Virus record (IMG/VR): IMGVR_UViG_3300042429_000429
Location: 1-30,914 of that record
Length of the DNA: 30,914 nucleotides
Reading direction: 5' to 3' (one strand)
Source of the DNA: a virus
Position numbers and translations under genes: made by a program. Under the pieces are notes generated by a model, which saw nothing but the letters and a program-made list of their open reading frames with translations, was not told where the DNA came from and searched no databases. This document shows, piece after piece, positions 24,500 through 30,914 of the stretch. Each line of letters begins with the position of its first letter. Position 1 is the first letter of the stretch.

Positions 24500-27400
24500 A
24501 TGCCTAATTACGATGAAATGGTTGACTACGTTACTCGCAAGTTCGAGGATCGCGGGCAAACCCCTGATCCCGCTGCGGTTATGCGCGTGTCGGCAAGGAT
24601 CATCAAAAAGCAGGGAGTGCAGGTTGATGCCAATCACATGGCGGGCCTCAGCGATGCGGCACGTCGTCGCTTAGCTGCACCTACGCAGAATGGAACCGCG
24701 CCGGGATCGTGGGAGCGAGTTAAAGAAGTCGCTGGAGAGTACGGCAGCGGTGTTGCGGATGCGCTTAATGTCGCAGGTAAAACAATCTCCCTTGGCTCAA
24801 CGGCGGCAGTTGGCGGCGTCGCTCTTCCATTCGTTAGCAATGAGACGGGTGCGCGCTGGTCCGATACGGTACGCCAGCAAGCCAGCGATCTAGGCGTAGC
24901 CCAAGAACGTGCGGGCGGCTTAAACTCAGCGGCTGGTGCGATGATGGCGGGGCCTCTTGCGCCCGCTGCTATACTAGGCGGAGTTGCGCAAAAAGGCGCG
25001 CAGATGCAAGAGCAGGGGCAGAACCCTACTGATTTGGCAAATCGCATCAATCTCGGCGGAACAGCCGCACTACAAACAGGCTTAACGGCAGCAGGTGCTG
25101 GCGTTGGCGCGGGTGCTGCACGTCTGGGTACGGTAGCGGGAGGAACGGCCTTTGGCTTACGCGGCGTTGCCGGACAAGCGGCACTCGCAGGCACGGGCGC
25201 GGCGGCTGGATTGGCGGCCACTGGCGCACAGGCAGGTCTCGACTACGCCACAGGCAACGAGCAGTTTGCCCCTGGTGCGGAAGATTACCTAGTGAACGCG
25301 GGCATGAATGCCGCAGTTCCGGCTATGGCTATGGCGCGCACGGGTGTTGCTGGCGCATTACGTGCGGCAGAAGGCAGACGCCAAGTCAACATGGATCAGC
25401 TCCTTGCCGCTAAGCAGGGGGATGCTGCATTGGCGGACGCTGCTGCAAATGATGCTGCTGTGAGTAAGCGTATCGACCTTGAAGATGCGCAACAGCAAGC
25501 CGTAGCAAAAGCACAAGAAGCGCTTTCAAATACGCCAGAAGTAGCTTCCGAACGCGCAAGAATAGATGCCGACATTCGCCAAGCGCAATACGAAGGCGTT
25601 GCGGGTGCTGTTGATAATACGTCCGTAGCTGATCGCATACTACGCGAGCGTATGGCGGCAGATCGAGAAGCATTCAACGCGGCTGATCAAGAGCAGTATG
25701 CTCGCGAGCAGGCGCAACAGGAAGCCGAAATAGCGCAGCGCGATGCGGAAGCGCGTCGCGATCTAGCCCCCGAGTATGCCCGAGACGCTGCACGTAAACT
25801 CGGTCTCAACGCTGACGATGTAGTGGCTCAAGCCCGTGCCGAGGCGGCATCGCAGCGCATGGGTGAAACCGTACGCGATCCGATTGCAGATCGCGTACGT
25901 TTCATGGCACGCGCCAACGAGGTTATGGGGGACTTTCCTACCGTTCCCGATAGGGCGACGGCTAAACCAGAAGGCCCGGTAGTAATACCTCGCATTGAAG
26001 ATATTCCTAAAGCGCGGGACATGCCGTCAACTACGCTAGAGGGGGCTGTAACCGCCCCTATCGGTGACCCGCTTGCTCAAGTTCGACGTGAGCAGCAGGC
26101 AAACCGCATGCGCAATGCTACAAACCGCGCTGGGGAAGAAGCTGCTGTTGCTTCGCGTGAGCAAGCGAAGGCCGCTCGTGAAGCCGTACGTTCCGCGTAT
26201 CAAGCAGAACGTTTGGATCGCCGTACTGCAACGCGCCTAATGGACGAATTGGGCGCTAAGAATCTTTCCGAAAAGCGGGCGGCTGAAATTCAAGCCGCGC
26301 ATGAGTACAGCGTTGAGAATCTTATCCCGCAACGTAATACGGCTGGCGATACCTACGAAGGCGCATACCCAACTCTTGAGGGCCAGACGGGAAAAGAGTT
26401 TGATACGGCAGCGGATACCGCTCCGGTACAGGAAGGAACGCCGGTTCAAGCGCCCGAGCCGCGCTATCTCGTAGAACCCGCCACTGGCAAAGCGCGCCTT
26501 GTCACCGATCGCATGACCGTAGATCCTAAGGAGACGGTCGCGTATTCCGATCTGACGCCAGAGCAGAAGAATCGTGTTGATGTAGCTGCCAAGAATCTGT
26601 CACGCCGGGTTGCAGGTCGTGACGTAACGCGCTCCGGCGCAGCTATTAATCCGGCTATTCCGCTTGTTGAAGGAATGCAGGCCCTAGGCAAGGGGGCTAA
26701 AGTCGTAGGTCGTTTAACTAAGCGCGGCGTCGGTCGGATAGTAGACAATGCGTCGGAGGCGCTGAGTGGAGATAGAACACATACGGGCCGCGCAGTGCGT
26801 ACCGTTATGGAAATGATTGGTGATGACTCCACAGATCGCCTTAAACGTAGTAGTTCGGCTCCCGTGCGCGATGCGGGCGACCGTATCAATCAAGCTATTG
26901 AAGAGTCGCATATTGCACAGCAGCGTATGCACAAAGCCATGGAGACAGCACGGACTGGCGCAGCTACCATGGACGCTAGTAAGGCCAAGGCACTTCACGA
27001 AGCCGATCAGCCTTCAAAGCCGATGGACCCTAAGCAGGAGTACGCTAACAGCCCTTGGAAGATGATGCTTGAAGGCAAGCTAGAGGTTCCTGAAAATCTC
27101 CAACAGTTTGTCGATGCTAAAGATCTAGCCAACCAATCTACTCGCGACGAAGCTCTCGCAGCAGGCGTACCGATTGGCAAAGGCACCGGAAAAAACGTGT
27201 TCATCCGTCACTTTACGGGAGACACGCACGGCATCCTGGCTAGCGGCTCTGATAGCGTCCTTGGATCTAAGTTTGTTCGCGCTATGTCCGAACTTAACGG
27301 CGTAGCGCCTGAGCAGATAAAGAAGGATTTCTTTGGATTAGATGCGCTCGGCAAGGGTGCAGGGGTGCGGCTCGACCCTATGGAAATAGGGCGCAAGTAC

Positions 27401-29029
27401 AAAGAGTTTCCATCACACTTGCGCGACGGCGACAACTACATCCGCCTGCTAGAAACAGACCCGTCACGTTACGTGCGCAGTACGTTCGAAGGCACTGCCC
27501 GGCGTATCGGATTCTATAAGGCGTTTGGCGGGGCTGTTGACGTTAGCGATTTGAGTAAATTGATGCCGCAACTGAACGGTGTGGCCGATGCACAAAAAGC
27601 TGCCGTAGTCCGCGCGATCAATGCGTACAACGGGTTTGGCGAGTTGCGATGGAATGCGGGTGATCGAGGCGCGGTTGAGGGTATTAACAACGCCAAGCGC
27701 GTTGTTGGCTCACTACTGACTAGCGCAACTGCTCCCGTGGACGTGTCGGAAGTAGTTAATATCGTTAACCACGTTCCACTGACCTACGCACTAGAGGGGC
27801 TTGCAAACGGTGCTGTTCGTAACAAGCGAGCAGTGGCTGAGGGAGGTCTTGATTCGGACGTTAAAAACCGCGTAGACTTACGCGGTGCTATGACTCAAGC
27901 TACCGGCAACTTTGCAGCAGGGGTTCAGCGCGCAGCCGGGCGTAATATCGTTAACCGCTATACGCACACGGTAGGCTACGAGGGTGGCCGTGCGTGGGCT
28001 AAGCATTTGCAAGAAGAGGGCGTAACTTTACTTGACGAAGGCTTTTTAACCATGAATCGGGTTTCGCCTGAAATGCAGGCGCGTTTTCGTGAAAAGCGTG
28101 CATCGGATACGGACGTTAAAGTCTTGGCGACTATGATCGCAGAGAACATGACCGGCGCTAAAAGGAACCTTGCACAAACCGCTCGCGGATCGCGTCTTGA
28201 AATAGTTAACACGATGGGGGCGCTCTTCCGTCGTTACGGTGAAAACCGCGTTCGCAATATGCTACGAACAATAGACGGAGCCAAGGCCATCATTGCTAAC
28301 GAAAAAGCACCTATGCGCGTACGCTTAGCGACCGCATCGGCTATGCTGGCTCAATCTGCCGCAGGTCTTGGCGTCAGCGCATCCGCCGCAACCGCCATCG
28401 GTACCGCGCTTACCTACGGCATATCCGCTTTGGGGATGTTTTGGGAAAGCAAAGAGTCAAACGTTCCTCTTTTGGCCAACGTCGTAGGCGGAGCTGTTCC
28501 CGGTAGCATGCTCAACTACATGAGTCGTGATTCCTCTAGCCCAGGCGTAGCGGTGGCATCGATGTTGTCGTGGCCCGTTATGGTCGGAAACTTAGTATAC
28601 ACGGCAGCAAGCAAAGGCGAACCGTCGCGTCTGTTCCCTGCGGCACGGCGTGTTAAGGAAGCATTGTCCAGCGATGATCGCGGCGGAAAACTAGCGCAGC
28701 AGATAATGTATAGCGCCGCTTCAAAGCTCTACGGAAGCCGTATGGGGGCAGCAGAACAATCAGACGATGCCAAAGCGCGTTCCGATTTTCGCAAGCGCCT
28801 ACTTGCAGGCGACGAAGACGGCGCACAAGCCGTCTTGAGTAGCTACCTACCTACGCTTAGCGAAGCCGACAAAAAGAAGTTCTTGAGGGGGCTTCCCTAC
28901 GTGAGTACTTTTGGTACTAAGCGCATGGCCGCAATCCTTGAAGCGATGCCGTTAAAGGCGCGTCGCTACATCATGCGCCATGATAGCGACGCTAAACGTA
29001 TTGTAGAACAATTCACACGTGAGGAGTGA
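24500..29029 (+). CDS. Giant internal virion / DNA ejection protein
   Basis: This is a 1509-residue protein, the last late gene, in the place of P22 gp16 or T7 gp16. Residues ~95-260 form an Ala/Gly-rich, membrane-compatible zone (AAVGGVALPF, LTAAGAGVGAGAARLG, AGLAATGAQAGLDYATGN). Residues ~295-480 form a charged coiled-coil region with QQ and RR runs. Around ~970-1020, ETDPSRYVRSTFEGTARRIG and FYKAFGG resemble helical domains of large phage ejection or polyvalent proteins. Residues ~1285-1370 contain further hydrophobic segments (AATAIGTALTYGISALGMFW, VASMLSWPVMVGNLVYTA). I see no SLT or other peptidoglycan-hydrolase catalytic motif by eye, unlike T7 gp16. The last 17 nt overlap the convergent resolvase gene. 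Confidence 0.78.
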   Translation: MPNYDEMVDYVTRKFEDRGQTPDPAAVMRVSARIIKKQGVQVDANHMAGLSDAARRRLAAPTQNGTAPGSWERVKEVAGEYGSGVADALNVAGKTISLGSTAAVGGVALPFVSNETGARWSDTVRQQASDLGVAQERAGGLNSAAGAMMAGPLAPAAILGGVAQKGAQMQEQGQNPTDLANRINLGGTAALQTGLTAAGAGVGAGAARLGTVAGGTAFGLRGVAGQAALAGTGAAAGLAATGAQAGLDYATGNEQFAPGAEDYLVNAGMNAAVPAMAMARTGVAGALRAAEGRRQVNMDQLLAAKQGDAALADAAANDAAVSKRIDLEDAQQQAVAKAQEALSNTPEVASERARIDADIRQAQYEGVAGAVDNTSVADRILRERMAADREAFNAADQEQYAREQAQQEAEIAQRDAEARRDLAPEYARDAARKLGLNADDVVAQARAEAASQRMGETVRDPIADRVRFMARANEVMGDFPTVPDRATAKPEGPVVIPRIEDIPKARDMPSTTLEGAVTAPIGDPLAQVRREQQANRMRNATNRAGEEAAVASREQAKAAREAVRSAYQAERLDRRTATRLMDELGAKNLSEKRAAEIQAAHEYSVENLIPQRNTAGDTYEGAYPTLEGQTGKEFDTAADTAPVQEGTPVQAPEPRYLVEPATGKARLVTDRMTVDPKETVAYSDLTPEQKNRVDVAAKNLSRRVAGRDVTRSGAAINPAIPLVEGMQALGKGAKVVGRLTKRGVGRIVDNASEALSGDRTHTGRAVRTVMEMIGDDSTDRLKRSSSAPVRDAGDRINQAIEESHIAQQRMHKAMETARTGAATMDASKAKALHEADQPSKPMDPKQEYANSPWKMMLEGKLEVPENLQQFVDAKDLANQSTRDEALAAGVPIGKGTGKNVFIRHFTGDTHGILASGSDSVLGSKFVRAMSELNGVAPEQIKKDFFGLDALGKGAGVRLDPMEIGRKYKEFPSHLRDGDNYIRLLETDPSRYVRSTFEGTARRIGFYKAFGGAVDVSDLSKLMPQLNGVADAQKAAVVRAINAYNGFGELRWNAGDRGAVEGINNAKRVVGSLLTSATAPVDVSEVVNIVNHVPLTYALEGLANGAVRNKRAVAEGGLDSDVKNRVDLRGAMTQATGNFAAGVQRAAGRNIVNRYTHTVGYEGGRAWAKHLQEEGVTLLDEGFLTMNRVSPEMQARFREKRASDTDVKVLATMIAENMTGAKRNLAQTARGSRLEIVNTMGALFRRYGENRVRNMLRTIDGAKAIIANEKAPMRVRLATASAMLAQSAAGLGVSASAATAIGTALTYGISALGMFWESKESNVPLLANVVGGAVPGSMLNYMSRDSSSPGVAVASMLSWPVMVGNLVYTAASKGEPSRLFPAARRVKEALSSDDRGGKLAQQIMYSAASKLYGSRMGAAEQSDDAKARSDFRKRLLAGDEDGAQAVLSSYLPTLSEADKKKFLRGLPYVSTFGTKRMAAILEAMPLKARRYIMRHDSDAKRIVEQFTREE

Positions 29030-29360
29030 TCTCAACGTAGGTCGCCAACGGGCCTACGTCGATACGGAAACTTCCTGACCGCACAAGCGAGTCGTTTGAT
29101 AACGCGCCTGCGTCTTGCAACGCATCAAAGATGGCCGCAATCGCGTTGTCCAGGTCCGGCTTGCACTTGCCGGTCGGCGTAGTCCACCGCACGTTAATAC
29201 CCACGGGTTCGTTCCATTGGTAATGTGGAACCGTAGATCGCCACATCGCCACGAACTTCTTGCGCCAGTCTTGGTAGCGTTTGGGCATGTACGTACCCCG
29301 TGCTGTGACACGGGGGCGAGCTTTAGCACAGGGTTCAAGACCGGGTAGTTGGATTTTCAT
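29013..29360 (-). CDS. rusA: RusA-family Holliday junction resolvase
   Basis: This is a 115-residue, metal-dependent homodimeric endonuclease that cuts Holliday junctions and other branched DNA during recombination, replication or packaging. The N-terminal PGLEPCAKARPRVTARGTYM block and the KPDLDNAIAAIFDALQDAG motif (67-85) are diagnostic. Asp69, Asp71 and Asp90 (in SNDSLV) correspond to the three essential aspartates of E. coli RusA (70, 72, 91). The conserved catalytic-associated Lys of that protein (Lys76) falls on Ala75 here by this alignment, an oddity. It is the last gene of the leftward replication operon. Its stop is inside the 3' end of the giant late gene. Confidence 0.9.
   Translation of the reverse strand: MKIQLPGLEPCAKARPRVTARGTYMPKRYQDWRKKFVAMWRSTVPHYQWNEPVGINVRWTTPTGKCKPDLDNAIAAIFDALQDAGALSNDSLVRSGSFRIDVGPLATYVEITPHV
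29035..29059. promoter_or_regulatory. Hairpin at the convergent operon junction
   Basis: ACGTAGGTC (29035-29043) pairs with GGCCTACGT (29051-29059) over nine base pairs (one G-U) around a seven-base loop. It lies 5 nt past the late-operon stop and inside the 3' end of rusA. Neither side has a T-tract, so ordinary intrinsic termination is not supported. It may slow transcription or protect 3' ends at the head-to-head junction. The role is inferred. Confidence 0.4.
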
Positions 29361-29392
29361 ATCTTTTCGTGTGTTTTAAGGAACATGATGTG

Positions 29393-29992
29393 CTACAAAA
29401 TATGTTTTTTTTTCTGAAACAGAAGACGTAGTCTTCTTTGTTGCTTTGACCTTGTGCCACTTTTTATTTCAATAGCCGCGCCACAGTATCCACAAGGTGT
29501 AGTTTCGGGGCAAGACGCTTCAAAAGCCCTTATCGCAGCAAATCGAACCGCATGCCCTGCGGCAGCGGAGCATTGGCGGCTGCATGTTTGTGGCACCCCT
29601 CGAACATAGCGGCTTCTCCGCAAAAGACCTATTTTAGTAGTGTCGTCTATCGTAATATCTTTACCGCACACGTGACAGGGTGTGTTTTCAGGAACGTCGG
29701 TAGTTTTTCTTTTGGCCAACATGCGTGCTCTGCTTACTTTTGATCTCTGTGCCGCACCGCACGCTTTAGAACAAGTCCAGTAGCCCGTTTTCCGGTATGC
29801 CTGTATTGCAGCCGACCCCTTTATAACTCCGCAGGCCTTACAGACTTCGCATTGCACTGATAAGGCGTGTGCCTCTATTTTCGCCTCTGAACTACATTCA
29901 GACGAGCAAAAAATGTTTCGTCCTCTACTGACAGGGGTGCCGCAAACAAGGCACAACGCGCATTCGTTAGGTAGTTGTTCGGTATCAGCCAT
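29393..29992 (-). CDS. Tandem zinc-knuckle protein (fourth module broken in frame)
   Basis: This is a 199-residue protein with tandem modules of the form CxxC(G)...CSxxC. Module 1 uses Cys14/17 with Cys29/33, module 2 Cys51/54 with 74/78, and module 3 Cys106/109 with 137/141. Module 4 begins at Cys167/170 but ends in RLRLLFQKKKHIL without a second pair. A one-base deletion or +1 shift in the A9 run (29405-29413) would instead read KKNIFCSTSCSLKH. That supplies the missing CSxxC with 28 residues of spacing (27 in module 3) and extends the protein to ~218 residues ending at 29335 inside rusA. Such modules are common in phage HNH or DNA-binding proteins; no HNH core is seen. It lies between DUF3310 and rusA, and a nucleic-acid-binding role is likely. 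Confidence 0.75.
   Translation of the reverse strand: MADTEQLPNECALCLVCGTPVSRGRNIFCSSECSSEAKIEAHALSVQCEVCKACGVIKGSAAIQAYRKTGYWTCSKACGAAQRSKVSRARMLAKRKTTDVPENTPCHVCGKDITIDDTTKIGLLRRSRYVRGVPQTCSRQCSAAAGHAVRFAAIRAFEASCPETTPCGYCGAAIEIKSGTRSKQQRRLRLLFQKKKHIL
29405..29413 (-). other. A9 homopolymer, candidate slippage site
   Basis: Nine consecutive A's on the coding (-) strand encode three lysines at the end of the zinc-knuckle gene. Such runs are known sites for RNA-polymerase slippage, and they are also common places for mutational or sequencing indels. Loss of one A (equivalent to +1 frame) restores the fourth zinc module; the -1 frame does not (it soon stops). This makes it a specific candidate for recoding. 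Confidence 0.5.
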
Positions 29993-30251
29993 TTGTCTTC
30001 TCGCGTTTAGCGATTTCTCGTTGAATGTACCAGACGGCCTTTTTTAAGTCCTCAATCGCATTGTTCTTTAGATCAGCCCGCCACGCATATTTAATCGCGT
30101 TACCCAAATTGAAGCCCATGTGTTCCGTGATTTGAATGCACTCGATGCCGCTTGGGTGTGACGTGTAGTGCGGTGGGTGGTTGACGACATCGGGTAGATT
30201 TTTGCAATTACCCCCTGCCATAATCCATACAGGCATAGTGTTTTCACTCAT
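29985..30251 (-). CDS. DUF3310 family protein
   Basis: This is an 88-residue protein. I start it at ATG 30251, which has AAGGA with 8-9 nt spacing on the - strand; an upstream in-frame codon at 30296 overlaps the polymerase and lacks such a site. Residues ~22-45 (VVNHPPHYTSHPSGIECIQI) and the following LGNAIKYAWRADLKNN, IEDLKKAVWYIQREI are the characteristic DUF3310 pattern. This family is common next to phage replication genes and has been loosely called nucleotide-kinase-like. Its biochemical activity is not established. It starts 1 nt after the polymerase stop and overlaps the zinc-knuckle gene by 8 nt, so the three are co-expressed. Confidence 0.88.
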   Translation of the reverse strand: MSENTMPVWIMAGGNCKNLPDVVNHPPHYTSHPSGIECIQITEHMGFNLGNAIKYAWRADLKNNAIEDLKKAVWYIQREIAKREKTNG

Positions 30252-30252
30252 T

Positions 30253-30914
30253 TTATCCGTCCTTTTTGTAGCATTCAGCAACCCAACCAGCACCACTGAC
30301 AGGCAGACCTTCTGCCCATTCCGGAAGCTGGAGAATAATGCGTTGAAACTCGTCGAATCGTGAAGCGTCGGGCATCTCTGCTACGATCTCGTCGTAAATA
30401 CGAAGGATCACCTTAAACCCCGCCGCTTCCAGGTTGTTGCAAGCATAGCGTAGCAGGCAGCCAGAAGTACCCTGCACAATGTGGTTCGTAAGCACCCCGC
30501 CATGAGTGCTGATCTTGCGCCACACCTCACCGGGACCATCTTCGCGCATGTAGTGCAACTGGCGCTTTGGACCGTACTCAGGATGCACAACGGTCTCCAT
30601 GGTGGCATACGGGTAGGTGATCTTGCGACCAGAAACGAGACGACATTGCAGATGCAAGCCATCGAATCGGTACGCTGCTTTGCCTATGCTGTATACGGAA
30701 CCTGGATTGTCAACGGCCTTCTCTGCGGCCTTCTCGGTATTGTGCCAGAACGCCACGTTTTCACGGTGTGTTGCACGGTATCCGTCGATGATGAACTGTG
30801 CCTCTGCATCAGACAGAATTAGTCCGTAGGCGTCCTTTGCTTGTGTCTGAAGGGTTTTCCATCCGGTGCGGTACGCAGCAGCGAGCTTGCCTACCTTACC
30901 AAGCTGGCGTTGAT
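30253..30914 (-). CDS. DNA polymerase, family A (partial, C-terminal)
   Basis: This is the C-terminal 219 residues of the phage replicative polymerase; the frame remains open past 30756 to the right edge. The visible start QRQLGKVGKLAAAYRTGW is motif B (the O helix). Arg2, Lys6 and Tyr14 align with Arg754, Lys758 and Tyr766 of E. coli Pol I. Leu10 falls at Pol I position 762. Further on, NHIVQGTSGCLLRYA (Asn143, Gln147) matches the N-x-x-x-QG region. RIYDEIVAEMP (Asp174, Glu175) is motif C with Tyr in place of the usual His. The gene ends at TAA 30255-30253, just before DUF3310. The exonuclease domain, if present, lies outside the window. Confidence 0.93.
   Translation of the reverse strand, partial: QRQLGKVGKLAAAYRTGWKTLQTQAKDAYGLILSDAEAQFIIDGYRATHRENVAFWHNTEKAAEKAVDNPGSVYSIGKAAYRFDGLHLQCRLVSGRKITYPYATMETVVHPEYGPKRQLHYMREDGPGEVWRKISTHGGVLTNHIVQGTSGCLLRYACNNLEAAGFKVILRIYDEIVAEMPDASRFDEFQRIILQLPEWAEGLPVSGAGWVAECYKKDG

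Follow-up and report, generated by a model that had tools for sequence, protein, structure and literature searches.

A one-base A-tract difference as the very probable cause of truncation in a phage gene for tandem zinc modules

The window analyzed here, a stretch of 30,914 nucleotides of viral DNA from IMG/VR, carries on its minus strand a gene for a tandem zinc-module protein, located between a DUF3310 gene and a gene for a RusA-like Holliday junction resolvase (rusA). The modules of this protein follow the pattern CxxC...CSxxC. The annotated open reading frame (29992-29393) encodes 199 aa, has the C-terminus ...LLFQKKKHIL and stops at TAG at 29395-29393. The features of the locus are as follows.

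29985..30251, minus strand: upstream DUF3310 gene (Pfam DUF3310, E=9.8e-16), overlapping the start of the zinc gene by 8 nt
29393..29992, minus strand: tandem zinc-module gene, A9 allele, with three complete modules and half of module 4
29894..29953, minus strand: module 1, CLVCG...IFCSSEC (C14, C17, C29, C33)
29759..29851, minus strand: module 2, CEVC...TCSKAC (C48, C51, C74, C78)
29570..29677, minus strand: module 3, CHVCG...TCSRQC (C106, C109, C137, C141)
29483..29494, minus strand: first half of module 4, CGYC (C167, C170), in the annotated frame
29405..29413, minus strand: run of nine A (A9), which is A8 in the close relatives L004 and L005
29335..29404, minus strand: +1-frame tail ending in TGA, corresponding to the C-terminus of the full-length protein in the A8 relatives and overlapping rusA by 26 nt
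29383..29397, minus strand: second half of module 4, CSTSC (C199, C203), in the +1 frame in the window and in frame in the A8 relatives
29013..29360, minus strand: downstream rusA-like Holliday junction resolvase gene (Pfam RusA, E=3.3e-15; PHROG 140)

Beyond the DUF3310 gene, the right end of the window contains the terminal portion of a DNA polymerase gene (30256-30756), with a match to the final section of PHROG 7766. On the other side of the locus, rusA and a plus-strand gene of 1509 aa (24500-29029) converge, their 3′ ends overlapping by 17 nt at 29013-29029.

The initial annotation had pointed out that the A9 run breaks the fourth module and that reading one base on completes it, and our re-reading of the gene agrees with this observation in every detail. 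The annotated frame indeed stops at KKKHIL, leaving the CxxC of module 4 without a partner. Skipping one base gives KKNIFCSTSCSLKHTKRYENPTTRS followed by TGA at 29337-29335, a reading that supplies the FCSTSC half of the module. The spacing between CxxC and CSxxC is then 28 residues in module 4 compared with 27 in module 3, and the extended gene overlaps rusA (ATG at 29360) by 26 nt, both as stated earlier. The A-tract is located near the 3′ end of the gene and is the only homopolymer of at least 8 in the window. Since 27 of 100 shuffles contained at least one run of nine A, the occurrence of such a run somewhere in the window is unremarkable per se. The chance of finding [FY]CSxxC in a random open downstream frame of equal length is about 1e-4, and that of any C[ST]xxC about 3e-3; these estimates are moot, however, because the A8 relatives encode the full module.

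In IMG/VR we found four close relatives of the zinc gene (L002-L005) and one distant homolog (L006), so that five close alleles, including that of the window, could be compared. The tract is A9 in the window, L002 and L003 and A8 in L004 and L005. In both A8 relatives the frame runs uninterrupted through QKKNIFCSTSCSLKHTKRYENPTTRS, giving a protein of 218 aa in total. Over 3.28 kb, the contig of L005 (L008) shares 99.7% identity with the window; the two are separated by 10 substitutions and a single gap, the A indel itself, which is also the sole difference across the zinc gene. Across the same gene, L004 differs from the window by the indel and one substitution; since the latter is silent, nothing but the indel alters the protein across the five close alleles. 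Where the L002 and L003 contigs (L009 and L010) overlap the window, over 5252 and 1629 bases, respectively, they match it base for base. Aligned with each other over 9.4 kb, they show 6 mismatches and a single gap, and both have A9; L009 extends 7.7 kb past the end of the window. A search of IMG/VR with a DNA pattern of variable tract length revealed no alleles beyond those of L002-L006, and IMG/VR searches with the other variant, the flanking genes and the C-terminus yielded no additional alleles of the zinc gene. Thus, both marks of a homopolymer-tract indel polymorphism are present: a length difference at the same site among close relatives, and an intact conserved protein encoded by the A8 form.

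The alignment of homologs called for by the initial annotation shows, besides A8 in two close relatives, that the CSxxC of module 4 is kept in the distant L006 without a slippery run. The L006 protein is only 39% identical, but it shares every one of the 16 CxxC/CSxxC cysteines with the A8 protein, its module 4 reads CKRCG...YCSKKC, there is no A-run at the site and all four modules are in one frame. Judged by these sequences, the fourth module is real, and the 199-aa reading frame conceals it. This 39% identical version occupies the same position between flanks that are about 90% identical, and its stop codon overlaps the rusA start as ATGA. In other relatives of the phage (L014-L017, just before 4001), a different gene precedes rusA; its C-terminus is a single module, CAFCG or CACCG followed by FCTSEC or FCTTEC, likewise with an ATGA overlap with rusA.

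As to the nature of the protein, no confident match was found in Pfam, PHROGs, NCBIfam or PDB sequences, no significant protein relative in the annotated phage collection, and no relative in 84,980 bacterial and archaeal genomes. None of the known zinc-finger or treble-clef Pfam families scored above the curated cut-off. Below it, the A8 protein matched DUF2116, a probable treble clef (13.4 bits vs. a cut-off of 26.8), and the L006 protein matched DUF7573 (18.8 bits vs. 30.2). The structural model is of low confidence (pLDDT 58), but its hairpin-then-helix units would suit treble-clef modules; a Foldseek search of PDB with this model gave no significant structural match. Taken together, the family looks like a set of tandem treble-clef-type zinc modules. 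We infer from the cysteine pattern that the modules would bind zinc, and both the motif and the neighbors (DUF3310, rusA, DNA polymerase) suggest that the protein probably binds nucleic acids. It belongs to a small protein family absent from the libraries searched, whereas the kind of variation that it displays is already known.

The tract length also changes how the zinc gene meets its neighbor: with A9 it ends 32 nt ahead of the rusA start, whereas with A8 the two genes overlap. From this arrangement it is reasonable to infer that tract length might affect rusA translation. The surroundings of the gene have a history of their own. From 30014 to 29326, only one substitution and the A indel separate the window from L004, whereas rusA has 19 differences in 348 bases and the DUF3310 gene 30 substitutions in 259 (Fisher p=7e-15). 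A nearly identical zinc gene between clearly diverged neighbors (about 5-12%) points to a probable recent block exchange of the gene between the window phage and L004, with edges near the ends of the zinc gene. Relative to the window, L004 and L005 have about 290 bases inserted between the end of the DNA polymerase gene and DUF3310.

It is very probable that the A9 of the window is a natural one-base tract-length allele, which arose by a replication slip and truncates a four-module protein. The support for this reading is that near-identical relatives differ as A8 and A9, that A8 gives an intact frame, and that module 4 is retained in the distant L006. In the proposed scenario, the gene between DUF3310 and rusA would originally have had a tract of eight A and encoded the 218-aa protein with four tandem CxxC...CSxxC modules. 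In this phage A8 would have become A9, most likely through slipped-strand mispairing during replication, shifting the frame within module 4 so that the product ends at 199 aa without its last two zinc ligands. A8 would then be the ancestral length and A9 might weaken or otherwise alter the zinc protein. The main argument for the direction from A8 to A9 is the intact module, as there are only five close alleles and the three A9 contigs represent nearly one strain. The populations behind the A9 contigs may also be A8/A9 mixtures. In the Listeria inlA gene, a poly-A tract varies at a frequency about 1000 times that of the average point mutation (PMC2831843), so that a one-base tract change such as the one proposed here is to be expected.

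The initial annotation had offered a choice between an indel in the homopolymer and a programmed frameshift making two protein forms. The former is upheld by the division of close relatives into A8 (L004, L005) and A9 (window, L002, L003), whereas the latter does not fit with four modules in one frame in the A8 relatives and L006. Slippage at the A-run, either ribosomal or transcriptional, that deliberately yields a three-module short form and a four-module long form is therefore improbable, although it has precedents. Runs of nine A are slippage-prone in many bacteria; the A9 of Thermus dnaX is exploited to make a short form accounting for about half of the product (PMC1088944), and Citrobacter tssM1 has an A11 run and requires both forms (PMC4256274). 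Moreover, in the A8 phages one A added to the transcript would yield the short form. However, making the full form from A9 requires a +1 or −2 shift, or a tract with one A fewer or two more. Insertion of a single A, which is the most frequent error of transcription in A runs (PMC5574713), leads from A9 into the third frame, where TYFVAHHVP is followed by a stop. The usual −1 frameshift of the ribosome ends in the same way and was rejected for this reason. RNA structure downstream of the run is unremarkable (z=−0.24), the A8 relatives produce the full protein without any shift, and L006 does so in the absence of a run; a shift-prone run is thus not conserved as a need of the full product. Given the general proneness of nine-A runs to slippage, A9 might still yield a certain amount of full-length protein, or A8 of the short form, and low-level leakage at either tract length, including rescue by transcript slippage, might accompany the tract-length allele. 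A search for a phage-type RNA polymerase gave no match, and the control likewise gave none.

Indel errors are common in homopolymers, and on these general grounds A9 could be ascribed to sequencing or assembly. Yet A9 is found again in contigs from distinct metagenome records, which are not identical at other positions, and in the aligned stretches of L005 and the window there is no gap other than the A indel. The presence of A9 in non-identical assemblies (L009 and L010) makes a one-off error unlikely, and we consider an erroneous A9 highly improbable, even if a systematic error at the A-run may be involved. The tract might, on the other hand, be a contingency locus, in which A8/A9 switching during replication would reversibly toggle module 4. 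This is a stronger form of the indel explanation rather than one that excludes it, and it agrees with the finding of both tract lengths in nearly identical phages, with the tract being the window's only long homopolymer and with the indel being the only change that affects the protein. However, one polymorphism among five alleles, with the A9 contigs so closely related, cannot show reversibility. The sole-difference indel is consistent with a higher mutation rate in the tract than elsewhere in the gene, yet it may represent a single event. In addition, poly-A tracts in prokaryotic genes are overrepresented at the 5′ end (PMC2831843), unlike the tract here, which is close to the 3′ end. A contingency locus is thus unlikely, if worth keeping in mind, and a little more doubtful still is a reversible switch that would both add or remove module 4 and alter translational coupling to rusA, with each population mixing the two forms.

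Overall, what appears to be a C-terminal truncation of a phage gene is best read as a natural tract-length allele. A one-base change in a homopolymer is an unexceptional mutation; should the tract switch or leak, however, the gene would provide a simple phage case of a homopolymer varying a probable nucleic-acid-binding protein. Among known systems, the zinc regions of phage HNH endonucleases bear a weak similarity to the protein (PHROG 15471, E=0.021; crAssphage intron-encoded HNH endonuclease, E=0.2), but these matches are non-significant and no HNH domain was found in the protein; with no Pfam HNH match, an assignment as an HNH endonuclease is not supported. Thermus dnaX and Citrobacter tssM1, with runs of A9-A11 (PMC1088944, PMC4256274), resemble the A9 allele in having an A run by a premature stop and the remainder in another frame. 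They differ in that the relatives studied here have A8 and need no slippage, that A9 would need one A fewer or two more, and that the present case is known from sequence alone. The poly-A variants of Listeria inlA (PMC2831843) are similar in that a one-base change in a short A run divides full from truncated protein among close relatives. Here, by contrast, the gene is that of a phage, the tract is near the 3′ end, the loss is confined to half of the final module of four and reversibility is putative.
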